A stretch of 50,458 nucleotides of DNA from a virus. Positions 15,768-35,805 of this stretch are shown piece after piece (position 1 is the first letter of the stretch; every line of letters begins with the position of its first letter). Location: positions 1-50,458 of IMG/VR virus record IMGVR_UViG_3300027985_001270; one strand, written 5' to 3'. A program made the translations under genes and the position numbers. The notes beneath the pieces are model-generated. The model worked only from the letters and a program-made list of their open reading frames with translations. It had not been told where the DNA came from and did no database searches.

Positions 15768-16973
15768 ATGGCTTTAGATATGACTTCATTTGCCCCAGCG
15801 CTAAAACAATTATACCCAGAAAAAAGAATTGAAAACATGGTATACAAAGATAATCCTTTGTTTGCCCTTTTAGCCAAAGACACTAACTTCTATGGCGAAT
15901 TAATGAAACTTCCTATTAAATATGGTGCTCCTCAAGGTTCATCTTCAACTTTCGCTACTGCTCAAGCTAACAAAACTAGCTCTTTATTGAAAGCATTCTT
16001 AATTACAAGAAATAAAGAATATGCTCTAGCTTCTATCGATAATGAAACAATCGAAGCTTCTAGAAACAACAGTGGCGCTTTCATCGAAGCTGCTAGCTTT
16101 GAAATTGATGGTGCTATTGAAACTGCCGGTCGTAACATCGCTGCCGCTCTTTTCGGTACAGGATCAGGTTCTAGAGGACAATCTTCTGCTGCTGCTACTG
16201 GTACAAGCATTACTTTAAGTGATGTTGAATCAGTTACTAACTTTGAAGTTGGTATGGAAATTGTATTTTCTACTGCTGATGGCGGTGGAACTGTAAAATC
16301 AGGTTCAGTAACTGTTACTCACGTTAATCGTGATAGCGGTGTACTAACTGTAGATGCCCTTACTGCTATTGACGGTGGTACAGGTATTGCTGCTAGTGAT
16401 TATATCTTCAGAGAAGGTGACTATGATAGTAAATTAAAAGGTATCCAAGCATGGTTACCAGCTTCTGCTCCATCTTCAACTCCATTCTTTAACGTAGATC
16501 GTTCAACTGATCCAACACGTCTTGCTGGTATCCGATATGACGGTTCAGCTCTTCCAATTGAAGAAGCTTTAATCAGTGCTGCTTCTAGAGTTGCTCGTGA
16601 AGGTGGTAAACCAGACTACTGCTTCATGAACTACAGCAAATTTGCTGATCTTGAAAAAGCTCTTGGATCAAAAGTTCAATATATTGATCTTAAAGCTAAC
16701 GCTGAAATCGGTTTCCGAGGAATGTTAATCAACGGACCTCGCGGACCAATCAAAGTTGTAGCTGACCAAAACTGTCCAGGTGACAGAGCCTTCATGCTTT
16801 CTATGGAATACTGGAAACTTATGAGTTTAGGTGCTGCTCCTCGTATTTTAGACATTGACGGTCTTAAAATGCTTCGTGAATCTTCAGCTGATGCTGTAGA
16901 AGTACGAGTTGGCGCTTACTTACAATTAGTATGTCGTGCTCCAGGCTTCAACGCTAACATTAAATTAGTTTAA
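15768..16973 (+). CDS. Major capsid protein (HK97-like)
   Basis: A 401-aa coat protein. Begins MALDMTSFAPALKQLYPEKR, and the core pattern (N-arm, E-loop near GELMKLPIKYGAPQGSS, spine helix near IEAASFEIDGAIETAGRNIA, C-terminal VEVRVGAYLQLVCRAPGF) fits HK97-like podoviral coats. Residues about 150-205 (TGTSITLSDVESVTNFEVGM) look like a small inserted beta domain that could decorate the shell. Codons favour GCT, CTT and TCT far more than neighbouring genes, consistent with the highest expression. CGGAG site after an AU-rich leader. Confidence 0.85.
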   Translation: MALDMTSFAPALKQLYPEKRIENMVYKDNPLFALLAKDTNFYGELMKLPIKYGAPQGSSSTFATAQANKTSSLLKAFLITRNKEYALASIDNETIEASRNNSGAFIEAASFEIDGAIETAGRNIAAALFGTGSGSRGQSSAAATGTSITLSDVESVTNFEVGMEIVFSTADGGGTVKSGSVTVTHVNRDSGVLTVDALTAIDGGTGIAASDYIFREGDYDSKLKGIQAWLPASAPSSTPFFNVDRSTDPTRLAGIRYDGSALPIEEALISAASRVAREGGKPDYCFMNYSKFADLEKALGSKVQYIDLKANAEIGFRGMLINGPRGPIKVVADQNCPGDRAFMLSMEYWKLMSLGAAPRILDIDGLKMLRESSADAVEVRVGAYLQLVCRAPGFNANIKLV

Positions 16974-17387: not shown

Positions 17388-17759
17388 ATGGCAAATCGTA
17401 ATTTCAATCGTCGTCAAGCCCTTGAAAAAGAAGTCAAAGACATTTATGCAACTATTGCAATTGGAGCCACAGGCGCCCCAACACTTACAACAGGTGTAGG
17501 TATCGCTTCTGTTTCTAGAACCTCTCAAGGTCTTTTCAGAATCACACTAGATGACAAATTCATCAGTCTTAAAAGCGTAAAAGTTATCCATGAAGTATCA
17601 ACTGCTGAAGATTTAACATTCCAAGTAAAAGCTGAAGATGTAGCTGGTTCAACTAAATCAGTAGATATTCTATCTCTTACTTCTGGCGTAGCTACTGACC
17701 CATCTGATGGTGCCATTCTTCATGTGAAAATTGAACTTAAAAACTCTTCTGCTATATAA
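17388..17759 (+). CDS. Head-proximal structural protein, paralog 1
   Basis: A 123-aa protein starting MANRNFNRRQALEKEVKDIY. It shares this N-terminus and its C-terminal part (FQVKAEDVAGSTKSVDIL... IELKN) with the next gene, so the two are tandem paralogs. Beta-rich with an N-terminal basic helix that could fasten it to the capsid or connector. Located between coat and adaptor genes; a capsid decoration or head-completion role fits, unproven. AGGAG site. Confidence 0.6.
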   Translation: MANRNFNRRQALEKEVKDIYATIAIGATGAPTLTTGVGIASVSRTSQGLFRITLDDKFISLKSVKVIHEVSTAEDLTFQVKAEDVAGSTKSVDILSLTSGVATDPSDGAILHVKIELKNSSAI

Positions 17760-17772
17760 TTAGGAGGATCCA

Positions 17773-18552
17773 ATGGCTAATCGTAATTTTAACAGAAAAC
17801 AAGCATTAGAGAAAGAGATTAAAGATATCTACGTAGAAGGAACTTATACTGCTGCAGTACAAGCTACAGGAACTTTAACTCTTACCTCTGATATAGTACT
17901 AACAAAAGTAATTGGTGGAGATTCTAATAACGGTAGTACTCTAACTACTGAAGTTGAAGCCGCTGCTGCTAACCCAACAGACACAATACTTGTAGACGTT
18001 ACAGGAACTGCAGATGCAATAGTAATCACAGTAACTCCTAACGACGGTACAAACAATGGTGCTACACCAGTAGATCTTACAACTGCTGAACTAGTAGAAT
18101 TAATCAATACTGGATCAGTATCTGGAAAGACAGTAACTCTTACTGATACTTCAAGCTTAATAGACGATCAAACTGCAACTGGTGGAGATACAACCGTACT
18201 AGTAGACGGTGGAGAAGGTGACAGTGTAGTAGCTACTTTTGCTGGAGGATCAGACTCATCAATAGCCCTAATTACTAACCAACTTAAGTGGGGTATTGTA
18301 AGCCTTTCTGAAACTGCAGTAGGTACTTTTAGAGTAGTTCTATCAGATAAATACCCAAGTTTTAAAATGTTTGATGGTCATTTAATCTCTAGCACTGCCC
18401 AAGATATTAACTTTCAAGTTAAAGCAGAAGACGTTAACGGTTCAACACCATACATCGACTTCTTCACGCTATCAGGTGCTACAGCAACAAATCCAGCAGA
18501 CGGATCTATAATTAAATTATCAATTGAACTTAAAAACATAACAGTATTATAA
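17773..18552 (+). CDS. Head-proximal structural protein, paralog 2 with inserted domain
   Basis: A 259-aa protein starting MANRNFNRKQALEKEIKDIY and ending in the same beta fold as its 123-aa neighbour. Between them, residues about 25-165 are extra. This insert contains ANPTDTILVDVTGTADAIVI, PNDGTNN, TAELVELIN and GGEGDSVVATFAGG, and is clearly related to three segments of the nozzle protein at 21193-25452. So this is the paralog plus a modular beta domain, likely exposed on the particle surface. AGGAGG site. Confidence 0.65.
   Translation: MANRNFNRKQALEKEIKDIYVEGTYTAAVQATGTLTLTSDIVLTKVIGGDSNNGSTLTTEVEAAAANPTDTILVDVTGTADAIVITVTPNDGTNNGATPVDLTTAELVELINTGSVSGKTVTLTDTSSLIDDQTATGGDTTVLVDGGEGDSVVATFAGGSDSSIALITNQLKWGIVSLSETAVGTFRVVLSDKYPSFKMFDGHLISSTAQDINFQVKAEDVNGSTPYIDFFTLSGATATNPADGSIIKLSIELKNITVL
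17932..18255 (+). repeat. Shuffled beta-domain, copy in the head-proximal protein
   Basis: Encodes residues about 54-161 of the 259-aa protein. Absent from the 123-aa paralog and present three times in the nozzle protein (22321-23500). Shared landmarks: ANP-D-(T/N)-(I/V)-LVD or -VTV, ITxTPNDGTNN, TAELVxLIN, GKTVTL and a terminal GG. Confidence 0.7.
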
Positions 18553-18566
18553 CAGGAGTATTAACT

Positions 18567-18860
18567 ATGATGATGGGTGGAGATAGAAAAGGAATAGCAG
18601 CCCTTATAATTAAAAAAATGGGAAAACCAGGAAAAGAAGAAATCGAGAAAAAAGACGTTAACGAAAATGGAGATGAAATTGACAATAACGCCGGTCTCGA
18701 TGCTGCCGTTCAAGAAATGTTTGATGCATTTCAAGTATCTAACAAAGATAAATTTAAAATAGCTCTTAAATCTTTTATCGAACTATGTGAAAACAATGAA
18801 GAAGAAGAGGAAGAAGAGCTAGAAGGTCCTGAAGAAGAATCTTCTAACGAAATGGAATAA
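18567..18860 (+). CDS. Acidic hypothetical protein, 97 aa
   Basis: MMMGGDRKGIAALIIKKMGK, a short helix-rich centre (AAVQEMFDAFQVSNKDKF) and an extremely acidic tail with two runs of Glu. GGAG site. Followed by a strong terminator. The highly charged tail is typical of small head-associated or scaffold-like proteins; function unknown. Confidence 0.6.
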   Translation: MMMGGDRKGIAALIIKKMGKPGKEEIEKKDVNENGDEIDNNAGLDAAVQEMFDAFQVSNKDKFKIALKSFIELCENNEEEEEEELEGPEEESSNEME

Positions 18861-18871
18861 TGTACTATCAT

Positions 18872-18907
18872 AAGGCACCATATGTAAAAAGTATGGTGTC
18901 TTATTTT
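18872..18907 (+). terminator. Rho-independent terminator
   Basis: AAGGCACCATA then a 9-base loop then TATGGTGTCTT (11-bp stem with one G-T pair), followed by TTATTTT. Good hairpin and U-rich run between the capsid group and the tail group of genes. Confidence 0.8.
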
Positions 18908-18927
18908 AATCCAAAAGGATAAAAAAA

Positions 18928-19611
18928 ATGATTACTCTAGAAGAATTAATTGCTCACTCTCGTTCAAGAGCAGACATGGAAAAAAGTCAATTTATTGACA
19001 ATACTGAGCTAATCTCCTACATTAATCATTCCATATCTGAGCTTCATGACATCCTTATTCAATCATACGGCGCTGACTACAGCGTAAAAACAGTTGAATT
19101 TAACTTAGTAAATAACCAAGATACTTACGCAATTAACGACCTTATAGATGATGACGACTTCTATAAACTAATGGGTCTAGATGCAAAGATAAACAACAGT
19201 GACTGGACTACTTTAAGTCCTTTCAACTTTAATGAACGTAACCGTTTTCAACACTTTAACGTATCAACATACTTAGGAATAACTAATTTCAGATACAGAC
19301 TAAGTGGCAGTAATATTATATTTGCTCCAATTCCAGATTCTGCCATGCCATGTCGTATGTGGTACATTCCAGTAGCTCAGAAATTAACCGAGCTAACTGA
19401 CACCCTAGATGACCTTAATGACTACGATGAGTATATAATCTGTGATGTAGCTATAAAAATGATGCAGAAAGCAGAATTAGATGTTAGTGTTTTAATGGCA
19501 CAAAAAGCAGCACTAAAAAGACGCATTGAAGAAGCCTCTCAAAACAGAGATGCTGGTAAAAGTGATTCAGTATCTGATATTTACGCAGAAGATTATCGTT
19601 GGTGGTATTAA
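18928..19611 (+). CDS. Head-tail adaptor protein
   Basis: A 227-aa protein starting MITLEELIAHSRSRADMEKS, with FIDNTELISYINHSISELHD, a pattern shared by many podovirus connector/adaptor proteins that sit under the portal and join head to tail. Later parts (NIIFAPIPDSAMPCRMWYIP) are beta-rich, ending in a helix and WWY. Its place after coat genes and before nozzle fits an adaptor like the T7 gp11 or P22 gp4 class. AAGGA site; stop overlaps the next start (TAATG). Confidence 0.7.
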   Translation: MITLEELIAHSRSRADMEKSQFIDNTELISYINHSISELHDILIQSYGADYSVKTVEFNLVNNQDTYAINDLIDDDDFYKLMGLDAKINNSDWTTLSPFNFNERNRFQHFNVSTYLGITNFRYRLSGSNIIFAPIPDSAMPCRMWYIPVAQKLTELTDTLDDLNDYDEYIICDVAIKMMQKAELDVSVLMAQKAALKRRIEEASQNRDAGKSDSVSDIYAEDYRWWY

Positions 19612-19928
19612 TGACTTTAAAATCATTTAAAAAAGTAAAACTTTCTGACTCATCAACAAGCCGCCTACAAGATAACTGTCAAACAACATTTGAATCACTA
19701 ACAAAAGTATCATTATTAGATGGTATTTTAATTAAAGATCTTGCCCTTACTGCCAGTTCTACAAATGAAATAGAACATAAACTAGATAGAAATCCAATAG
19801 GATGGATAGTAGTTAGGCAGGGAGCACAAGCTAACATATGGGACCTACAAGACGCTAACAAAAGTCCAAGCAAATCACTCTCTCTTGCATGTTCCGCAGA
19901 TGTAACAATAGATTTATGGGTTTTTTAA
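19611..19928 (+). CDS. Hypothetical structural protein, 105 aa
   Basis: ATG at 19611 overlaps the adaptor stop; an in-frame TTG at 19599 is less likely. Beta-rich, with EHKLDRNPIGWIVVRQGAQA and a final VTIDLWVF. This last part resembles short domains found at the base of podovirus fibres. A small tail-assembly protein is inferred from position. Confidence 0.55.
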   Translation: MTLKSFKKVKLSDSSTSRLQDNCQTTFESLTKVSLLDGILIKDLALTASSTNEIEHKLDRNPIGWIVVRQGAQANIWDLQDANKSPSKSLSLACSADVTIDLWVF

Positions 19929-19957
19929 TTGACTTTATTTAGTAAATGTGATAATAT
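19929..19957 (+). promoter_or_regulatory. Own promoter of the GIY-YIG endonuclease
   Basis: TTGACT (19929-19934), 17 bases, TAATAT (19952-19957) preceded by TGA. The expected transcription start falls at about 19964, which is the A of the gene's ATG, so the message would be leaderless. Confidence 0.65.
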
Positions 19958-19963
19958 ATAAGA

Positions 19964-20530
19964 ATGATAGTATATAAAATAGAGCATAAAATAATAAAAA
20001 AAGTTTATATTGGTAGAACCAATAGAAAATTATTAGCTAGGGTCTGGCAACATATAAGAGATCATTCTCCAATAGGAAAAGCAATAACAGATTTAGGGAT
20101 AGAGAATTTTGATTTTCAAGTAGTTTTTACTTCTGATTGTGTGGAGCAAATAAAACAAAAAGAAGCAGAATTAATTTTATCCTACAACTGTATTCACCCA
20201 AATGGATATAATCAGGAATATGGGAAAGATAATTTAACAGGAATTAATTTAAATTTTGATAAAAATACCAAAAATTGGAAGTTAAGAACTACTAGAGATA
20301 AAAAAAGAATAACCTTGGGTTCATTTCATAGTAGAGAGGAAGCATTAGAATACTATGATTATTGTTTAAAAGTGGATAAGTGGGATCTTTATAAGATACC
20401 TAGAGTATCTAAGTTTAAAAATAATAAATTTAGATTAAGAGTTTGGGATGGCAAAAAAAGAGTATATTTAGGGATATTTAAAACAAAAGAAGAGGCTTTT
20501 AACTTTTACAGGAAGAAAATATATGGCTAG
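19964..20530 (+). CDS. GIY-YIG homing endonuclease with AP2-like repeats
   Basis: A 188-aa free-standing homing endonuclease. Residues 1-85: GIY-YIG nuclease (VYKIEHKIIKKVYIGRT, HIRDHSPIGKA, catalytic Glu in QKEAELILSYN). Residues about 105-188: two AP2-like DNA-binding units with WKLRTTRDKKRITLGSFHS and FRLRVWDGKKRVYLGIFKT. No Shine-Dalgarno sequence precedes the ATG; its own promoter would give a leaderless mRNA. The gene is more A/T-rich in codon choice than its neighbours and its last 8 bases overlap the next structural gene, whose start and ribosome site lie inside it. Signs of a mobile insertion in the tail operon. Confidence 0.85.
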   Translation: MIVYKIEHKIIKKVYIGRTNRKLLARVWQHIRDHSPIGKAITDLGIENFDFQVVFTSDCVEQIKQKEAELILSYNCIHPNGYNQEYGKDNLTGINLNFDKNTKNWKLRTTRDKKRITLGSFHSREEALEYYDYCLKVDKWDLYKIPRVSKFKNNKFRLRVWDGKKRVYLGIFKTKEEAFNFYRKKIYG

Positions 20531-21182
20531 TACTACTTATATGAATCTTAGTTTACCTACATCAACTGTGACTATAGGACCTCTATGGAGTGTTATGATT
20601 AATACTGCCATAGAATCAATTGATGAACATGATCACACATCTACAAAAGGTAAACAAATACCCACAGCAGCTTTAAACATAAATGCAGATTTAGACCTAA
20701 ATAGCTTCTCACCATTTAACGCTTTAAGCTTAAAATTCAGCTCTCAATCTGCCACCCTAACCGGTGCATCTAACGCCTCATCTCTTTACGTAGTGAGCGG
20801 AAACTTATATTTCACAAACAGCGCAGGAACAGCAGTACAAATAACCTCTTCAGGTTCCCTTTACCCAACACCAGGATCAGTACAAGCCCTTAACAGATTC
20901 TCAGTAAGTGGTGATATTACAATCGGTGCCTCAGATGATATTGTAGTTCTAGCAGTAAACACTGCAGCAGCAAGAGAAATAACACTTCCATCGGTAAGTG
21001 CAGTTTCAGACGGAAGATTCTACATAGTCATAGACGAGTACGGCTCAGCTTACGACAATAACATCACCTTAACGCCTAACGGTTCTGATACAATAAATGG
21101 TGAATCATCTCTAGTTATAGACTCTTCTTACTCAGCTACATGGGTAATAGCTGATGGAACTTCAAACTGGCTAGTAGCATAA
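20523..21182 (+). CDS. Tail fibre-like structural protein, 219 aa
   Basis: N-terminal MASTTYMNLSLPTSTVTIGP and HDHTSTKGKQIP, motifs often seen at the virion-attachment end of phage fibres. The C-terminal part (ITLPSVSAVSDGRFYIVIDE, NNITLTPNGSDTINGE, ATWVIADGTSNWLVA) matches the C-terminal tip of the 1123-aa fibre at 32434-35805 in pattern. Probably a short fibre or tail spike base subunit. AGGAA site inside the endonuclease gene. Confidence 0.65.
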   Translation: MASTTYMNLSLPTSTVTIGPLWSVMINTAIESIDEHDHTSTKGKQIPTAALNINADLDLNSFSPFNALSLKFSSQSATLTGASNASSLYVVSGNLYFTNSAGTAVQITSSGSLYPTPGSVQALNRFSVSGDITIGASDDIVVLAVNTAAAREITLPSVSAVSDGRFYIVIDEYGSAYDNNITLTPNGSDTINGESSLVIDSSYSATWVIADGTSNWLVA

Positions 21183-21192
21183 GGAGTTTATC

Positions 21193-24100
21193 ATGGCTCT
21201 ACAAAAACAAAAAATACCAGTACCATTCTCAACTGGTCTTGATACAAAATCAGATAGTAAACAACTTCAAATTGGTAAACTAGTAACTGCTGAAAATGTC
21301 GTATTTGATAATCCAGGTAAACTACAAAAATCCAAAGGATACGAAGAAATATCAAACTACGCTCTTACCGGAGAAAAACTAGATAATCTCCACTCTCTAT
21401 CTTCATATAAAAATGAACTTCTCGCTCTTACTGATACTGAATTATACGCACGCTCTGAAAATATAAACAAATGGATCCTTAAAGGAAAAGTAGTAGATGT
21501 AAATGCGGTATCATCAGTAGTAGTTAAAAACTCCATGACTCAAGAAGCAATAGATTGTATCTTTTTAGAAAATACAAAAGTATTTGCATATACTGACACT
21601 GAAGGAATTAAATACTCTGTAATAGACCATCTTAATGGTACCACACTTATTCACGATTCGCTAATAAGTTCTACAGGACTAAAACCACGCCTTGCTAAAA
21701 CTGGATCAATAGTAATTATATTCTATACAGAAGGCACTAACATATTATACAGAACTTTTAATGTAACTAATCCGTCAGAAATAAGTGATGCTACCACTGT
21801 AGTAGAAGATCTGGCAACCAACAATAACTACGACGTAGCTTCTACATCTAATAATTACGTAACCGTAGTATATAACAGTTCCGGAGACGTACTAAAAGTA
21901 TTTCAAATATCTCCTGCATTTGTAAAATCAACAGTAGTTACAAAAACTGGGGAATCAGGAGCGGGAACAATAGACGTTAATGTAAGTTCTACTGAAAAAA
22001 TAATAGTATCCTACTTTGATAACTCTAACGTTAAAGTATTCATGTTCAGCAGTAACTTTGGTAACGACATTATATCTCCAACTACAGTAGAAACAATAAG
22101 CGGAGTAATAAACGTCACATCCCAACTCAAAAATGACACAGTAACTGTCTACTATGAAATAGAAAACTATGAAACATCTGGCAGTATGGATCTAGTATCT
22201 GCTACAGCATCAACTGAGGGAGGATCTGGTGGAGCTCCTAGATCTTATAACAACTCAACAGTTCACTCTATCGGAGATATGTTTATCATAGATAACTCAC
22301 ACCCTAATCGCTTTTATGATAAAGTAACTTTTCATGTAGAAGAAGCTGCTGCAAATCCAACTAATACAGTACTAGTAGACATGGTGTATACTGAAGATAG
22401 TAGTAGTAATGCTATCTGGAACATTACAATCACACCAAACGACGGAACAAATAATAGCGGTGTTCCTGTTTCAATATCTACAGCTGACTTATGTCCAGTA
22501 GTTAGATTTGGACCTTACGCATCTAACATTACACGAACAGTTACCGGTTACACATATGGTGGAGGATCTACACAATCTCTACCTCTTCCATATGAAACAT
22601 ACCAAAGAAGAATAGCAGCAGATTATTATAATCAAACCCTAGCCGTTAACGGTGGCTGCCTTGATGGCTATACATTCATAATGGATGAAGGAGTTTCAAC
22701 CACTCATACAGGGGAAGCTTATGGCGCTCTATGTGCTGGTATAACTTATACATACAGAACTGCAGGTCCAGATGCCAATGGCTACACAGTAAAAACAATA
22801 GTAAATTCACCAGCTGCAAATCCGCTAGATACAGTACTAGTAGACTTCTCAGGAAGTGCATCAGACATAGTAATCACAATCACACCAAACGACGGAACAA
22901 ATAACAGTAGCATTCCAGTTTCAATATCCAGCGCTGAATTAGTTTCATTAATAAACAACGGAACAGTATCAGGAAAAACAGTAACCCTTTCAGGAACTAC
23001 AACTCTAAGAACTAAAATAAAAGCAGCAGGTGGAGATAAATCACTAGCTACTCATAGAGGCTGTCTTGATCAATGTATAGCAACCTTTTCTGGTGGATCA
23101 GAATCAGCAACTCCAATAGGTCAAACAGTAGGTCTAGTAGATGAAATAACCTACCTAAGTACAGTAGCAGGAGAAGAACGTAACAGCACTACAGTAACTA
23201 CACAAGTCAACGCTGCCGCATCTAATCCGGATAACAATGTTATAGTAACAGTAACTGGTAGTACGGATGCTATAATAATAACCATCACACCAAACAGCAG
23301 CCCAGCTAATTATATAACCACCGCAGAACTTGTAACCTTAATCAACAATAAAGCTTTTACCGGCGTAACTCTAAACGATAGTAACCTCCTCCTTAATGCC
23401 ATTACAGCAACAGGCGGTGGTAGCACTAGCATGATTAATGGTGGAGAAGGTGATAACGTTACAGTAGTCCTTGATGGTGGAGCAGTTCCCGGTGAAGATT
23501 ATAATAATCACTACATTAGACAAAATACAATAACAACAGGATCAGTTTTAGGTACAGCTTCAGATTTTCTAAGAAGTGTCTGTCTTGCAGGTAAGGCAGT
23601 AAATGTAAACGATAATACATACTTGCCAATCATGCACGTAAGTGAACTTCAGTCCACTAACTTCCTTGCTGACGAATCTGGGTCAATAATATTATCTATC
23701 AGTCCTAATAATGCTGGAACTATCATTGCAAATAATCAACTTCCTCACGTTCCAAGCATTGACGATAATACTATTCTACTACCATCTCAAATAAAAGGTA
23801 GAACAATTACAGATTATGGAGTGTTTGATTCTCTACTAGGAGTTAATAGTAGCGTAATAACCTTCGATACTCCTCTAAGTACCGGATCTAAAATACTAGT
23901 AGATAATCTTCACCTAGCTTCAGGTATACTATATGCATATGACGGATTTCAAGTAACAGAACACGGATTTTTTCTATATCCAGAAGATTTAACATTTGAA
24001 ACTGAAACAGCAAACGGCTTCATGTCTGATGGTACATATCAATATACAGCCCTTTATAACTGGACAGACGTACAAGGAAAACAACATCTATCAGCTTCAG

Positions 24101-25452
24101 CAGTTCCAATTGAAGTAGTTCTTGATGGTGGAACAGATGCACAACTAGTAACAATAAAAGTTCCAACTCTTCGTATAACAAGTAAAGAAAATGTAACAAT
24201 AGATGTATATAGAACTGAAGCATCAGGAACCATTTTCTATAAAGTTACCTCTGTAGACTCCCCAGTAATGAATGATAAAACTACAGATTATGTAAGCGTT
24301 TCTGACGGTCTAACAGACGATGACCTAATAGATAACGAAACCTTATACACAACTGGGGGAGTTCTTGATAATATTGTAGCTCCTCAAGCATCAATAATTG
24401 AAAGCTCAAAAGATCGTATCTTCTTAGCCGGTCTTGAAGATGTAAATAAGATTCAATATTCGAAAATAGTCAGTGAAGGAAAGCCAGTAGAATTTAACGA
24501 TACACTAACCACCCTAGTTAATCCATTCGGTGGAGCCATCACCTCCCTTAAAGTCATGGATGATAAATTAATAATCTTTAAAGAAAGTGCAATCTACTAC
24601 ATGTCCGGAGATGGACCAAATAATTTAGGTGAACAAGATTCATTTATAACCCCAGAACTTATCAGTTCCGATATGGGTTGTGTTAACAGAGACTCTATAG
24701 CTCTAACCGCTCAAGGTTTATTCTTCCAAAGTAAAAAAGGTATCTATCTACTAGGAAGAGATTTAAGTATTAGCTACATTGGTGCACCCGTAGAAAAATA
24801 TAACAGTTTAACCATCACCAGTGCCGATGTTATTAACGATAAAAATCAAGTACGTTTTGCAACAGAAGAAGGAACCTGCCTCGTATATAACTACTTTGTA
24901 AATCAATGGGCAACTTACACAAATCAACCCTCCCTTGATGCTGCCATAGTAAATTACAAGTATTACTATTTACGACCTGAATCAGCAATCTACCTAGAAA
25001 ATGATACCTACTCAAATAATGGTACCGATATTAAAATGAAAATAGAAACAGGCTGGATCAACTTTGCAGGAGTTCAAGGACTTCAAAGAGTTTATAGGTT
25101 ACTTCTTCTAGGTGAATTTAAATCTGATCATAAATTAAGAATAAAAGTTGCATACGACTACAAAGACGTCTATACTCAAGAAGCAACCGTAGATTCAACA
25201 GATTTTATAGATTCTACAGCCTTTGGAGGATATTCACCATATGGAAGTGAATCTACCTACGGAACAACAGGAAACCTATATCAAATAAGATTAGACATGG
25301 CACAACAACGCTGCCAAGCAATAAAACTAAGTATTGAAGACATCACAGATGATTGTACGGAAGGAATGTCCCTCTCCACTATATCCTTCTTAGTGGGAAC
25401 TCTAGCATCTCCAACAATCATAGACAAATCAAATACTTACGGCGTTTCTTAA
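21193..25452 (+). CDS. Tail nozzle/stabilisation protein with inserted repeat domains
   Basis: A 1419-aa protein. Its start (PVPFSTGLDTKSDSKQLQIG, KLVTAENVVFDNPGKLQKSKG) is the signature of T7 gp12 / P22 gp10-like nozzle or stabilisation proteins that close the tail tube. The C-terminal half (DRIFLAGLEDVNKIQYSKI, DDKLIIFKESAIYYMSGDG, SKKGIYLLGRDL) is beta-propeller-like, as in that family. Residues about 377-769 carry three related beta domains that interrupt the nozzle fold and make the protein longer than ordinary family members. AAGGAG site. The inserted domains may contact the host surface or fibres. Confidence 0.75.
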   Translation: MALQKQKIPVPFSTGLDTKSDSKQLQIGKLVTAENVVFDNPGKLQKSKGYEEISNYALTGEKLDNLHSLSSYKNELLALTDTELYARSENINKWILKGKVVDVNAVSSVVVKNSMTQEAIDCIFLENTKVFAYTDTEGIKYSVIDHLNGTTLIHDSLISSTGLKPRLAKTGSIVIIFYTEGTNILYRTFNVTNPSEISDATTVVEDLATNNNYDVASTSNNYVTVVYNSSGDVLKVFQISPAFVKSTVVTKTGESGAGTIDVNVSSTEKIIVSYFDNSNVKVFMFSSNFGNDIISPTTVETISGVINVTSQLKNDTVTVYYEIENYETSGSMDLVSATASTEGGSGGAPRSYNNSTVHSIGDMFIIDNSHPNRFYDKVTFHVEEAAANPTNTVLVDMVYTEDSSSNAIWNITITPNDGTNNSGVPVSISTADLCPVVRFGPYASNITRTVTGYTYGGGSTQSLPLPYETYQRRIAADYYNQTLAVNGGCLDGYTFIMDEGVSTTHTGEAYGALCAGITYTYRTAGPDANGYTVKTIVNSPAANPLDTVLVDFSGSASDIVITITPNDGTNNSSIPVSISSAELVSLINNGTVSGKTVTLSGTTTLRTKIKAAGGDKSLATHRGCLDQCIATFSGGSESATPIGQTVGLVDEITYLSTVAGEERNSTTVTTQVNAAASNPDNNVIVTVTGSTDAIIITITPNSSPANYITTAELVTLINNKAFTGVTLNDSNLLLNAITATGGGSTSMINGGEGDNVTVVLDGGAVPGEDYNNHYIRQNTITTGSVLGTASDFLRSVCLAGKAVNVNDNTYLPIMHVSELQSTNFLADESGSIILSISPNNAGTIIANNQLPHVPSIDDNTILLPSQIKGRTITDYGVFDSLLGVNSSVITFDTPLSTGSKILVDNLHLASGILYAYDGFQVTEHGFFLYPEDLTFETETANGFMSDGTYQYTALYNWTDVQGKQHLSASAVPIEVVLDGGTDAQLVTIKVPTLRITSKENVTIDVYRTEASGTIFYKVTSVDSPVMNDKTTDYVSVSDGLTDDDLIDNETLYTTGGVLDNIVAPQASIIESSKDRIFLAGLEDVNKIQYSKIVSEGKPVEFNDTLTTLVNPFGGAITSLKVMDDKLIIFKESAIYYMSGDGPNNLGEQDSFITPELISSDMGCVNRDSIALTAQGLFFQSKKGIYLLGRDLSISYIGAPVEKYNSLTITSADVINDKNQVRFATEEGTCLVYNYFVNQWATYTNQPSLDAAIVNYKYYYLRPESAIYLENDTYSNNGTDIKMKIETGWINFAGVQGLQRVYRLLLLGEFKSDHKLRIKVAYDYKDVYTQEATVDSTDFIDSTAFGGYSPYGSESTYGTTGNLYQIRLDMAQQRCQAIKLSIEDITDDCTEGMSLSTISFLVGTLASPTIIDKSNTYGVS
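22321..23500 (+). repeat. Three copies of the shuffled beta-domain in the nozzle gene
   Basis: Copy A covers residues about 377-437 (shortened), copy B about 530-638, copy C about 664-769. Shared pattern: ANP or SNP start, TVLVD or VIVTV strand, ITPNDGTNN (copies A and B) or ITPNSSP (C), TAELV, and a terminal GG. Copies A and B share a 29-base exact DNA match (22426-22454 and 22876-22904). All three are related to residues 54-161 of the protein at 17773-18552. Confidence 0.75.
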
Positions 25453-26804: not shown

Positions 26805-29345
26805 ATGGCAAAAAATAATAAAGAAGTTAACGTTGATAAAGCATGGTATTTATTTAAAAATATTATTGACAACACTAAACGTAACGACGACTTAAGAGAA
26901 GCTTATAAATTAGCCACCTCTCCAGAGGAAAAAGCCAAAATTGTTAAATTTGCCAAAGATAATCTTAAACAATTAAATTACGCTAAAAAAGAAATTGAAA
27001 CCTTAAAAGAATACGGAACCGTAGGAATGGGAAAAGTATTCCGAACCTTCGGTGAAAAAATGATTGCAGAAGAAGGTAAAGACGGGGCAAAAATCCTACT
27101 AAAGAAAATAGGAAAACATCTACCAGGTGTAGGTGCCCTTGCTGGTATTATGACCGCCTTTGCGACAGATGATGCATCTGCAGCAGTTCCAGTACTAAAT
27201 GAAGCAGAAAATGTAGGACCAGAAAAAGGAACTCCAGAATATAAATATGAATCTGGAGAATCAAAAAGTGTAGAACTTCCAAAAGAAGATATACAAGCTC
27301 AAGCAGAAGCCATTAAGGCAATGCAAAAAGCCAACGAAACCATTCATGCTCCTAAAATATCCTCTCCAGAAGAGGTAGCAGCAGTTAAAGCTAATGAAGG
27401 TGCTATCATGAATGATGAAGAAGCAGATCAAATTGAAAAAGGTATAGAAGTAGAAAAAGAACATACTAATAAACCAAAAATAGCGCTAAAAATAGCCCTA
27501 GACCATTTAAAAGAAGATCCACGATATTATGATCATCTTCTATCAATGGAAATGGAAAATCCAGCTCCTAAAACTAATGAAGAAATTAAAGCTAAAGGTG
27601 GCTTTGTAGATGGAGAAGAGCATCAATATGCTGGTGATACCATAGACGCTAAACTAAATAAAGGTGAAATGGTACTTAACATTGAGCAACAACAAAAACT
27701 TCTAGATATTTTAAAAAATAAAGAGACAAAGTTGCCAAAAGATGATAGAATAGATAATAAAGTAAATAATAAAGAAATAGATGTAGATAAATCTGTACAA
27801 AAAGAATTATTTAACTATATTAAAGGTGAATCTGAAGAAAAACCTAAAGGAAATATAGTGAAAAAATTAGCTGAAGGAACGGAAAATGTAGGGCAAGCTC
27901 CTGCCACTGTAGGTCTTCCTGAATCAATGAAATATAAAGGACCAGAATCAAACGCTCAAGGAACTTTACCAGGAACAGTGCCAGAAGTACTTCCTGAAGA
28001 TGTACCAATTACTCCAGCTCCAGTAACAACTGGAACATCTACACCTGTCCCAGTACAACAAGCACCTATAGTTCAAGAAACTGCTCCAGTAGTAGAAACT
28101 ACAAAAATTAAAGAAAATTCAGCAGTTAATAAAAAAATAGCAGAAGACACCCTTAATGCTAATTCGACAATTCGTCAAGCAATTTCAGATACAAAAAATC
28201 TACAAAATGAAATAATTGCAAAAAAAGCTGAAGATATAAAAGTAGCTGACTACATATCTCAACAATTGAAAGCAGAAGATGATAAAATAAAACAAGAAAA
28301 TGCTCCAGAGCTTGGAGGAACAATAAAAGCTAATAACATCTCTACTGGAAGAAGAGTACTTGCTAGAGTAGCCATGGCACTGGGAGCTATTGGTGCAGCC
28401 ATGACTGGTGGAGAAAATACAGCAGTTAAAATTATTCAAAATGCAATGGATAGAGATTTGCAAGCTCAAAAAATGAATACTGAAACCTATCTGGCTAAAA
28501 AGAAATTTTTACTATATCAATATCAACAACAACTTGCTGCTCAAATAGCTAATACTAATTCTCTAAAAGTAAAACAAGATGGTGCACAACTTCTAGGACA
28601 ATTGGCAGTAATGGATTCAAATATAAAAACTGCACGTGAACAATTAGCTTTAGACAAAGCTAAAGCAGCCAGAGAACAACAGGAAATAGATTTAAAATTA
28701 GTATCTGATGCTCAACAAAAACAAAGATTAAAAAATATTGCAAGTGGAGCAAAAGTAGCTGATATTTCAGAACTTCCTCCAGAAATGCAAGAAAAAGCTG
28801 TACGTCTTCCAGATGGATCAGTAGGAGTAGCATTTGATAAAGAACGTGCAAGAAAAGTAACAGAATATCAAAATGAAGTTATCCCAGCTATTCAAGGAGC
28901 CAAACGTATTCTTGAAACTGCTCAAAATTTTAACCGTATTACCGACCTAACAAAACGTGCACAAATAGCTTCTGAAATGAAAGCTCTCGGTGGACAATTA
29001 AGATTACCATTCACCGGTCCTGGTATTTTAACAGATAAAGAATTTGACCGCTTAATGGATACAATCGGTGACCCAAATAAACTTCTTGCAATTCCATCTA
29101 TACAAAAAGCTAAATTAAAGACAGTAATAGGCAAACTACAAAAAGACCTACTAACTCACTACGATAACGCAGGAGTTAATATGAGCAAAGAAGCCAAAGA
29201 CGCTCTAATAGGTAAAGGCGAAACAAACAGGCAATTATTAATCAAGAGATATAAAGATAACGGCTACGATGAAAATCAAGCCAATGATCTTATAAATGAC
29301 CTAATTGCTAAAGGTACTTTAAGTAAGGAAAAATATGGAATCTAA
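26805..29345 (+). CDS. Internal virion (ejection) protein, 846 aa
   Basis: Long, charged, mostly helical protein. Residues 1-90 helical; about 90-125 a hydrophobic Gly/Ala segment (GKHLPGVGALAGIMTAFATD); a long low-complexity, Pro/Glu/Lys-rich centre (residues about 370-430, rich in PxxP); about 500-640 another helix-rich Ala/Gln part around GRRVLARVAMALGAIGAAMT. Ends in KGTLSKEKYGI. This architecture fits a large ejection protein of the T7 gp15/gp16 or P22 gp16 type. No transglycosylase motif found in it. The end overlaps the next gene start by 11 bases. Confidence 0.6.
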   Translation: MAKNNKEVNVDKAWYLFKNIIDNTKRNDDLREAYKLATSPEEKAKIVKFAKDNLKQLNYAKKEIETLKEYGTVGMGKVFRTFGEKMIAEEGKDGAKILLKKIGKHLPGVGALAGIMTAFATDDASAAVPVLNEAENVGPEKGTPEYKYESGESKSVELPKEDIQAQAEAIKAMQKANETIHAPKISSPEEVAAVKANEGAIMNDEEADQIEKGIEVEKEHTNKPKIALKIALDHLKEDPRYYDHLLSMEMENPAPKTNEEIKAKGGFVDGEEHQYAGDTIDAKLNKGEMVLNIEQQQKLLDILKNKETKLPKDDRIDNKVNNKEIDVDKSVQKELFNYIKGESEEKPKGNIVKKLAEGTENVGQAPATVGLPESMKYKGPESNAQGTLPGTVPEVLPEDVPITPAPVTTGTSTPVPVQQAPIVQETAPVVETTKIKENSAVNKKIAEDTLNANSTIRQAISDTKNLQNEIIAKKAEDIKVADYISQQLKAEDDKIKQENAPELGGTIKANNISTGRRVLARVAMALGAIGAAMTGGENTAVKIIQNAMDRDLQAQKMNTETYLAKKKFLLYQYQQQLAAQIANTNSLKVKQDGAQLLGQLAVMDSNIKTAREQLALDKAKAAREQQEIDLKLVSDAQQKQRLKNIASGAKVADISELPPEMQEKAVRLPDGSVGVAFDKERARKVTEYQNEVIPAIQGAKRILETAQNFNRITDLTKRAQIASEMKALGGQLRLPFTGPGILTDKEFDRLMDTIGDPNKLLAIPSIQKAKLKTVIGKLQKDLLTHYDNAGVNMSKEAKDALIGKGETNRQLLIKRYKDNGYDENQANDLINDLIAKGTLSKEKYGI

Positions 29346-32433: not shown

Positions 32434-35400
32434 ATGACTGAATATAAATATGGTGGTAGTGGAGCCGGTGGCTCAGCTTCATGGAAAGATGCAGTAAATA
32501 CATATAGTGATCTACCAGTAGGTAGCTCCGTAGGTGAAACTCGTTTAGTAATAGATACAGAAGAACTATATACCTGGGACGGATCAGCCTGGGTTTTAAT
32601 GACTTCTACAAGTTCAGTTTCAGGTCCAGCATCCTCAACAGATAACGCCATTGCACGCTACGATAGCACAACTGGTAGAATAATTCAAGATTCTCTAGTT
32701 ACTATAGATGATTCTGGTAACGTCATAATTCCAGGAAATTTAAGAGTTAACGGAACTGAAACAATAGTAAATACAGAAACTCTTGAAGTTAAAGACCCTA
32801 ATATAACAGTAAATTCTGGAGGAGATGACACTACAGCAGAAGGTGCAGGCTTAACAGTAGAAAGAACTGGTACCAACGGATCTCTAATATACGAAAACGC
32901 TCTAACTTCTAAATTTAAACTAGGTGCTCTAGGATCAGAAGTAGAAGTAGCAGATATATCCTCAACTCAAACCCTTACAAATAAAGTTATAGATGTAGAC
33001 TCTAATACCGTATCTAATATTGAAGTAGATAATTTAAAAGCTGGTGTACTTGATACTGATATAGAAACCACTTCAGCATCAGACGATACCATCCCATCTG
33101 CTCTAGCAGTAAATACACAATTTCTTAGACTTGGAGAAAGAACAAAAGAGCCAACAGGCTTCCCAAATAGAACTGATTCCACAATATCAATATCCACAGA
33201 TCAATTCACAATCGAGCCATCATCCACCTCCTTTGATTATTACATTCACGGTGTAAAATATACAAAATCATCTGCGGATACTATCACAATACCAGACACA
33301 GAAGGTTTACATTACGTATATTATAATGGCTCCACCTTAATATCTTCTACAACAATGTCTAAAACAGTTCTTACTGATTATGCAATAGTAGCAGTAATAT
33401 ACTGGAATGCAACTGACAATGTAGCCTTATACATGGGAGATGAACGCCACAGCACAGTAATGGATGGCGCAACTCACTACTACCTTCACGACACAGTAGG
33501 TACAGTATTTCATGAAGGATTAGCACTTAGCAACTTCTCCATAGACGGAACAGGATCTTCAGATCTAGATGCTCAATTTGACTCCTCTGAAGGAACAATC
33601 TTTGATGAAGACTTATCACACACCGTAGATGCAACAACTGCAGGTTCATCTGACATTCCTATATTCTATAAATCAGGTGTAAACGGATACTGGAAACTAG
33701 ACGCTCCAACAGGTTTTGTAGCAAAACGTTATGGAACTTCACGTCTTGCGTATAACCAATACACTGGCGGAACCTGGCAACAAACAGAAGTAGACGATCT
33801 AAGATACGTCCTAACTCACCTTTATGCTACTAATGATACTACCTATAAATTAATAGCTGTACAAGGTCAAAGTACATATATTAACATTATCACAGCACGT
33901 CAAGGCGCCATAGAAGAAATAAACAATATAAATCTTTCAGGAATGGCATTTGCTGAATTTACTCCCATAGCTTCCATAATTTTCCAAACTGCAGACGCTT
34001 ATACAAATACAATTAAAGCAAGAATACGCAGTACAGATACTGGTGATAATTATGTAGATTTTAGAGGAGCAAGCCTCTCTCCATCAATTAATGCAGTAGA
34101 TCACGGCAACCTTGCTGGTCTTCTAGATGATGATCATCCTCAATACGCACTTCTTACTGGTAGAACAGGAGACGCATTAAGTATTGACAATGTAACAGAA
34201 TTTACCTCTGATGCCGGAGTTACTATAGAATCCTCCCTCCTTAAAGATGGAGAAATTACAACAGGTCAAGGTTTAGAACTTGAAAAAATGACCAGCATAG
34301 GATTAAGTACCGCTTTAATATCTGGTGGTGAAGTTACAATAAACGTAGACACTACTAAATTTGACGTCAGTGCTGGTAGTGGTATAGTAATTGATGCACA
34401 CACAGATCCAGAAAATCCAGTTTATACTGAAGTTTCATGGTCTGCCTTCACAGCACAAACAGTAACAAACCTAGCAACTAGTGCAGCCACTTTCTTAGGA
34501 ATTGACAGTACTGGATCCATAGTACAAACCACTTCAGACTTTACAAATGAACAAAGAAGAGACTACATCCAAATAGGCTCTCTACAGCATCCAAATTTAA
34601 CCTCTATTTCTGGAATTGTTCAATCTTCTAATCCAGTATTAAACACTGCAGCCGCACTAAAAGACTTCTCAAGAGCAATTGGTGCCGTAATCGAAGGTGC
34701 TCAATTTAGTGCTAACGGAGCAAATGTAAAAATAGACCGGTCTGCAGCTACATCATTCTTCTACGGAAGTAATTTTAGAAATAGTGTTAAAAATCCACAT
34801 GAATTAACAACCTCAGCAGAAACTGCAGTTACATTCGTTCACGTTTACAGAAACGGATCTGGTGGCTTTACAGTAACTACTCCAACTACAGATTTAGATA
34901 TTGCTCATTATGACAATGGTACTGGAACTCTTGCAGCCGTTCCTGCATCTGATCCATATCAAATTTTCAGATTCTTCTACGTAGCCTCTTCTAATCTAGT
35001 AGTTGTGCACTATGGTCAAGCAATATACAAATCCCTCTCAGTTGCAGTAGGATCTATTCAAAGTGAAGAATTTGACAAAGCTGCTCTACTTACTAACTCT
35101 CCACTAAGAACATGGCTTGTAGTAGAAAGAACAGTAACAGACATAGCCTCTGCAGTAACAGCAGGAACAGCTAGATTCATCGCAGCCGGTAAATTTGGAG
35201 ATTCAACAACCTCTTCAGCCTCTACTTCTACTACAGATCTTCAAACTGCCTACAACAACAGTTCAGAACCTGAAATAGTTCTAACATCAACTAGAGGCGC
35301 ATTAAGTATACAAGATGCAGACACACCAATAGGAGCAAATTTATTTGAAGTATCTGATTATGGTAAAACTACTGATTACCTAGCAGTATCCTCAAGCGGT

Positions 35401-35805
35401 ATCACCCTTTCTTCAGGTGTAACAGTTAACAGCATCCTAGATGATGACACCCTATCTGCAGATTCAGCAACAGCCCTAGCAACTCAGCAATCTATAAAAG
35501 CCTACGTGGATAACCACTCTGCTGGTATTGATATAGAGTCAAAATCTGCCTCTTTTAACGCAGCTGATGGTATTACCTACCTAGTAGACACTACCTCAAC
35601 AGCCATTGCTGTACAACTACCTACTCCAGCTCTAAACATCTCAATAACAATAAAAGATTCAGGCTTTAACGCTAATGCTAATAACATAACACTAGTTAGA
35701 GCAGCATCAGAGAATATTGAGGGCGTAGCAGCTACGTACACCATCGACTCTTCAGGTGCCTCAGTCGTAATCGTATCCGACGGTACAGACTGGTTCTTAT
35801 TATAG
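32434..35805 (+). CDS. Large tail fibre, 1123 aa
   Basis: Repetitive beta-structured fibre. N-terminus has the short particle-binding pattern WKDAVNTYSDLPVGSSVGET; residues about 70-200 resemble fibre shaft modules (NLRVNGTETIVNTETLEVKD); the middle carries NLAGLLDDDHPQYALLTG, the DDHPQY motif of many phage fibres; the C-terminus (LPTPALNISITIKDSGFNAN, NNITLVRAASENIEGVAA, VIVSDGTDWFLL) matches the end of the 219-aa protein at 20523-21182. Likely the main host-binding fibre, anchored to the tail. Confidence 0.75.
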   Translation: MTEYKYGGSGAGGSASWKDAVNTYSDLPVGSSVGETRLVIDTEELYTWDGSAWVLMTSTSSVSGPASSTDNAIARYDSTTGRIIQDSLVTIDDSGNVIIPGNLRVNGTETIVNTETLEVKDPNITVNSGGDDTTAEGAGLTVERTGTNGSLIYENALTSKFKLGALGSEVEVADISSTQTLTNKVIDVDSNTVSNIEVDNLKAGVLDTDIETTSASDDTIPSALAVNTQFLRLGERTKEPTGFPNRTDSTISISTDQFTIEPSSTSFDYYIHGVKYTKSSADTITIPDTEGLHYVYYNGSTLISSTTMSKTVLTDYAIVAVIYWNATDNVALYMGDERHSTVMDGATHYYLHDTVGTVFHEGLALSNFSIDGTGSSDLDAQFDSSEGTIFDEDLSHTVDATTAGSSDIPIFYKSGVNGYWKLDAPTGFVAKRYGTSRLAYNQYTGGTWQQTEVDDLRYVLTHLYATNDTTYKLIAVQGQSTYINIITARQGAIEEINNINLSGMAFAEFTPIASIIFQTADAYTNTIKARIRSTDTGDNYVDFRGASLSPSINAVDHGNLAGLLDDDHPQYALLTGRTGDALSIDNVTEFTSDAGVTIESSLLKDGEITTGQGLELEKMTSIGLSTALISGGEVTINVDTTKFDVSAGSGIVIDAHTDPENPVYTEVSWSAFTAQTVTNLATSAATFLGIDSTGSIVQTTSDFTNEQRRDYIQIGSLQHPNLTSISGIVQSSNPVLNTAAALKDFSRAIGAVIEGAQFSANGANVKIDRSAATSFFYGSNFRNSVKNPHELTTSAETAVTFVHVYRNGSGGFTVTTPTTDLDIAHYDNGTGTLAAVPASDPYQIFRFFYVASSNLVVVHYGQAIYKSLSVAVGSIQSEEFDKAALLTNSPLRTWLVVERTVTDIASAVTAGTARFIAAGKFGDSTTSSASTSTTDLQTAYNNSSEPEIVLTSTRGALSIQDADTPIGANLFEVSDYGKTTDYLAVSSSGITLSSGVTVNSILDDDTLSADSATALATQQSIKAYVDNHSAGIDIESKSASFNAADGITYLVDTTSTAIAVQLPTPALNISITIKDSGFNANANNITLVRAASENIEGVAATYTIDSSGASVVIVSDGTDWFLL

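Follow-up and report, generated by a model that had tools for sequence, protein, structure and literature searches.

The closest described counterparts of the domain reported here are the Ig-like domains of phages. As stated in PMC9230969 and PMC11476376 with reference to Fraser et al. 2006, these domains are found in many kinds of virion protein in unrelated phages, are variably present, have no evident role in assembly and have been suggested to bind carbohydrates weakly. Tail sheath proteins carry additional domains, mostly Ig-like, on the outside of a conserved core (PMC9230969), and the nozzle protein gp17 of phage SU10 (Kuravirus) contains four inserted Ig-like domains between propeller blades 2 and 3 (PMC9509320). 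SU10 also encodes gp10, which was not seen in the particle and has a predicted Ig-like fold resembling the minor capsid protein of epsilon15 and the N-domain of the phi29 head fibre (PMC9509320). Recursive insertion of domains is described from the Si3 region of cyanobacterial RNA polymerase, where largely one domain class is nested up to six levels deep (PMC13114784).

The window analysed here is the whole 50,458-base IMG/VR contig IMGVR_UViG_3300027985_001270 of an uncultured virus. Its genes include those for the large subunit of terminase, the portal protein and a major capsid protein of the SU10 type (PF17236, above its cut-off). Downstream of the capsid gene come, in this order, gp123, gp259, three proteins of 97, 227 and 109 aa, a GIY-YIG endonuclease, a 219-aa protein and the 1419-aa nozzle-like protein. 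The 227-aa protein had no Pfam or PHROG family match. Our use of the term nozzle rests on size and gene order, together with the naming in the original prediction, and a search of the PDB with the nozzle-family profile reached no SU10 gp17 chain at E <= 1. The window nozzle nevertheless resembles SU10 gp17, as both belong to short-tailed phages whose genes are arranged in broadly the same way and both carry several inserted domains in tandem; it differs in the missing PDB sequence match and in that its inserted domains belong to another family and vary among close relatives. The genes for gp123 and gp259 lie closely downstream of the capsid gene in the window as well as in relatives (related loci are denoted by L and a number). 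They share with SU10 gp10 a place between capsid protein and adaptor, the likeness being one of gene position, and gp259 differs from gp10 by the module inserted in it. By analogy with gp10 in the matching position, gp259 would be located on the head surface. The homing-endonuclease-like GIY-YIG gene (19964-20530) between the 109-aa and 219-aa genes has no homologue in related loci, and L010 and L002 have its two neighbours side by side.

Features of the window (coordinates in bases of the 50,458-base contig)
Feature	Position	Strand	Evidence or remark
Major capsid protein (SU10_MCP type), synteny anchor	15768..16973	+	Pfam PF17236 E 1e-8, above cut-off; PHROG major head protein
gp123, insert-free tandem paralogue	17388..17759	+	Conserved family, 56 loci; position similar to SU10 gp10, in the capsid protein-adaptor interval (PMC9509320)
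gp259, module-carrying gp123 paralogue	17773..18552	+	AF2 pLDDT 91.4
Module in gp259, residues 38-162	17884..18258	+	Profile match, 188 bits
Acceptor loop TPNDGTNN, gp259 residues 88-95	18034..18057	+	In relatives, further module or ice-binding-like domain here
227-aa protein, probable adaptor (from gene order only)	18928..19611	+	Kept in related loci
1419-aa nozzle-like protein	21193..25452	+	Close relatives 971-1049 aa
Nozzle insert, ~440 aa, residues ~330-771	22180..23505	+	Missing from five aligned relatives
Module copy A, nozzle residues ~376-500, second half degraded	22318..22692	+	Profile search
Module copy B, nozzle residues 515-638	22735..23106	+	159 bits
Module copy C, nozzle residues 650-764	23140..23484	+	119 bits
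29-base exact repeat, A copy	22426..22454	+	Exact DNA match
29-base exact repeat, B copy	22876..22904	+	Exact DNA match
1123-aa tail-fibre protein, module-free	32434..35805	+	L015 homologue has module at point matching residue ~370

The original prediction described gp259 as its 123-aa tandem paralogue plus an internal insert, and both ends did align with gp123, the N terminus (residues 1-41) with 63% and the C-terminal 82 aa with 50% identity. The insert in between aligned with three segments of the nozzle, namely residues 513-639 (51% over 127 aa, E 9e-34), 645-764 (44%) and 378-440 (49% over 63 aa). All three of the predicted nozzle copies were thus recovered, with the qualification that the one at 377-437 is the intact first half of a module whose second half (to ~500) is degraded. 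Smith-Waterman scores against shuffled sequences gave z values of 19 for copy A, 38 for copy B and 26 for copy C, as opposed to 0.3 and 1.0 for two control segments of the nozzle. The similarity is therefore far above what composition would produce, which rules out low-complexity Thr/Asn/Gly sequence as its cause. The module comprises ~125 residues with a consensus of roughly (A/G)TLxLTxDIxLT...TPNDGTNN before and xxTPVxLTTAELVELIN...GEGDxxVATFxGG after the point at which it is split in the nested arrays treated below.

The 29-base exact DNA match announced between two nozzle copies, ACAATCACACCAAACGACGGAACAAATAA, was located in copies A and B. These agree at 17 of 20 fourfold sites in the half of the module that bears the repeat (gp259 and either copy at 11 of 21) and have the derived motif GCLD in common. 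A recent duplication, as had been proposed, fits the repeat-bearing stretch and only that, since copies A and B are ~46% identical at the protein level overall; outside the stretch the nozzle copies have diverged strongly and sit on long branches of the tree. For the shared stretch itself, local gene conversion is just as possible as recent duplication.

Comparison with related phages revealed that the module is cleanly missing at homologous sites. The nozzles of L010, L002, L006 and L017 align on both sides of a gap at window residues ~330-771, and judged from these alignments the window nozzle carries a clean insert of ~440 aa. The L023 nozzle is without this insert but contains two modules in a separate insert located elsewhere in the protein; the same contig contains gp123 and no gp259. 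Among the nozzle homologues fetched, only those of the window and L023 contain the module. The gp123 family is mostly represented by a short module-free protein in the loci in which it is conserved, and the module of the L015 fibre lies within a stretch of ~217 aa at a point where the window fibre is continuous. Such pairs of empty and filled sites are natural material for testing the role of accessory domains.

The module copy in gp259 is 68% identical to that of L009 and 62-67% identical to copies in tail-tube and fibre proteins, as compared to 50% and 46% for the nozzle copies of its own genome. Few branches of the module tree were supported, and the gp259 and window nozzle copies were not joined. 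Copies from head proteins did not form one group, and the head-protein copy of L003 was joined with tail-tube copies (support 99/94). Because gp259 is closer to foreign copies, and in view of this tree pattern, exchange of the module across a wide phage pool is well supported by the sequences, rather than simple shuffling within a genome, and the nozzle copies of the window could have come from outside this genome. The original prediction had the module moving between virion proteins of a single genome; given the closer kinship of the gp259 copy with those of unrelated phages, movement within this genome is at best an inferred step. The suggestion of a selectable surface domain fares better in its other parts, as it fits a discrete module that is found in several virion proteins and for which the sites of relatives are cleanly empty. 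We consider it probable that the insert is a mobile accessory domain, a surface appendage of head-proximal and tail proteins in otherwise different phages that was spread by recombination among virion genes and whose own loop accepts further modules.

Nested arrangements of the module were found in six gp259 homologues (L008, L010, L016, L017, L018 and L048), each of which contains a run of N halves, one whole module and a run of C halves in the order N-N-[N-C]-C-C. The split always falls in one loop, between PNDGTNN and ..V.LTTAEL, and in all six contigs the N halves are spaced 69-72 aa and the C halves 62-65 aa apart. Depth increases from one module in the 259-aa window protein to two in L010 (390 aa) and three in L008 (524 aa). 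L008 and L010, whose capsid proteins share 89% identity, have gp259 homologues that are distinguished by 134 central aa. Their outer halves are orthologous (80, 84, 77 and 72% identity); the extra central halves of L008, N3 and C1, are at most 62% identical to anything known and are therefore not a recent local duplication. The simplest reading of the two sequences is that the innermost module either gained or lost one whole module in its loop. In a further gp259 homologue (L051, 8062-9477) the same loop is occupied by an ice-binding-like domain (PF11999 Ice_binding, residues 114-305, E 1e-37), so that discontinuous host halves flank a whole guest domain in the nested arrays and in L051 alike. 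No account of such an ice-binding domain (DUF3494) in phages was found in the literature searched, and a search of the window for the ice-binding family gave no match, a negative that carries no weight because the control genomes were silent too. A scan for interrupted junctions detected no nested host outside the gp259 family. We regard the nesting as well supported in sequence, and the outer N and C halves may be inferred to fold together around their guest. Nested insertion is common to these arrays and Si3, with the difference that here it concerns phage virion proteins, a single loop and depths of 1, 2 and 3.

The N and C halves might instead be independently folding repeats that were duplicated separately in tandem, in which case the apparent nesting would come down to a row of N halves with a row of C halves behind it. 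We judge this rather unlikely, although several properties of the arrays are in its favour. The halves can vary separately, as L016 contains two N and three C halves. L018 has N halves that are far more alike (77%) than its C halves (49%). In L008, AF2 modelled only the inner module and some of the C-terminal core with confidence and did not resolve the outer halves, the mean pLDDT being 56 outside the innermost module. Against separate repeats, the non-nested contexts examined contain exactly one N and one C half, always together, and N and C counts are equal in four of five complete arrays (L048 runs off its contig). Moreover, the difference between L008 and L010 is a whole central N+C unit with halves unlike any neighbour, and the junction of L051 is filled by an unrelated domain. 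A correlation of the divergence of N halves with that of C halves, on the other side, did not single out nested pairing, which ranked 64 of 288 for all units and 11 of 288 for the nested proteins; parallel pairing did worse, with ranks of 234 and 268, respectively.

If the nested reading is followed, each N half in N-N-[N-C]-C-C would fold with its matching C half. The acceptor loop would occupy the distal end of the domain, and each module inserted there would lengthen a stalk pointing away from the particle. This stalk would rise from a protein of the head surface in the case of gp259 and from the tail in that of the nozzle. More tentatively, the docking loop of the module might permit stalks to be built stepwise, by placing whole copies or another tip domain (such as the ice-binding-like one) in the innermost loop, and it is possible that this amounts to a telescoping, exchangeable display system on podo-, sipho- and myovirus-type particles. 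Its task would likely be weak attachment, to glycans or the cell surface, or the display and spacing of a tip domain. The literature searched, the coverage of which is incomplete, describes no promiscuous module of virion proteins that doubles as its own acceptor. With depths of 1, 2 and 3 among related phages, the recursive growth of a protein domain would be open to direct test, and the loop is a site at which nature has already shown a virion protein to take insertions.

A different explanation is that the module is a phage or bacterial Ig-like accessory domain that has diverged by sequence drift only. Its ecology is similar, with many virion proteins and horizontal movement (Fraser et al. 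2006, as cited in PMC9230969 and PMC11476376) and presence or absence among relatives, and the SU10 nozzle itself has four inserted Ig-like domains (PMC9509320). We nevertheless find this explanation unlikely, as the predicted structure has a 10-residue helix in the middle of the module. The AF2 model of gp259 (pLDDT 91) is a confident mixed alpha/beta fold with helices at residues 104-113 and 129-132, and the description of the module as beta-rich is correct only in part. Foldseek gave no PDB match at E <= 0.001, only low-probability Fab matches to the whole of gp259; the one match in BFVD (5.7e-4, rmsd 26) is not meaningful, and matches of ~95 residues to small phage proteins in BFVD perhaps concern the gp123 core rather than the module. 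A gp123 profile reached no solved decoration protein in the PDB, the best match being an S-layer protein with E 0.22. Searches with 27 module members yielded no relevant Pfam or PHROG match, sequence searches of the PDB likewise gave nothing relevant, and none of the families in these collections accounts for the module. In addition to its separate sequence family and predicted mixed alpha/beta fold, the module is unlike Ig-like accessory domains in its loop that repeatedly hosts modules. By these searches it is a widespread family without a name in Pfam, PHROGs or the PDB, and it joins the short list of promiscuous phage domains as an unnamed, widely exchanged surface domain.

A scan of IMG/VR with gp259 identified 24 contigs and a scan with the module alignment four more, so that together with the window the module is present in 29 environmental virus contigs. 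It was not detected in 50,697 phage records (cultured phages), in 72,556 plasmids or in the GTDB genome collection, the GTDB scan relying on exact short patterns. Applied to the fetched loci, the same kind of search recovered the known copies with E values no higher than 1e-19. Host proteins include tail-tube proteins (L012 and L013; PF18906, E 1e-31), a tail sheath protein (L021; phrog_23, E 8e-57), a phage Ig-domain protein (L024), a fibre (L015), head-proximal proteins, nozzles and several unnamed proteins. The module boundaries are sharp, with flanks that are unrelated between hosts. Several kinds of virion protein in different phages thus carry the module, a trait expected of accessory domains. 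Like the extra domains of sheath proteins it is inserted in a conserved virion core, but here one and the same module recurs in proteins of the tube, sheath, nozzle, fibre and head.

That the module has been inserted repeatedly, at different sites and within its own copies, could also characterise a selfish element that surface loops tolerate and from which the virion gains nothing, and in the ShiLan case an insertion domain of a phage is known to conceal an endonuclease (PMC11855218). This is quite improbable for a module of 125 aa with no Pfam-recognised nuclease or splicing motif and no visible means of self-transfer, all identifiable hosts of which are virion proteins. Repeats are error-prone in metagenome assembly and the arrays derive from uncultured contigs, but short-read artefacts are a very remote explanation for arrays with constant spacing and one split point in six contigs from several IMG datasets, in which copies are mostly ~50-77% identical and thus too diverged for collapse or false expansion.

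Some further loci deserve mention. Two nozzle homologues, L072 7975-11817 (1280 aa) and L080 9249-13547 (1432 aa), contain large unmatched stretches in their N-terminal halves (after ~318 and ~157, respectively), in which neither the module nor a Pfam match was found. Two very long proteins without PHROG match, L020 4329-14471 (3380 aa) and L022 4239-14069 (3276 aa), carry one module each. The window also encodes an 846-aa protein (26805-29345) in which residues 208-250 form a DUF5661 domain (PF18905, E 2e-10). A 361-aa gp123-family paralogue in L083 (9345-10430) has a different insert near its C terminus, so that inserts of more than one kind seem to occur in this family. In L014 (7746-8780) the module interrupts a GN.ITIEY...GGED-type unit of similar pattern, possibly a distant relative serving as host.
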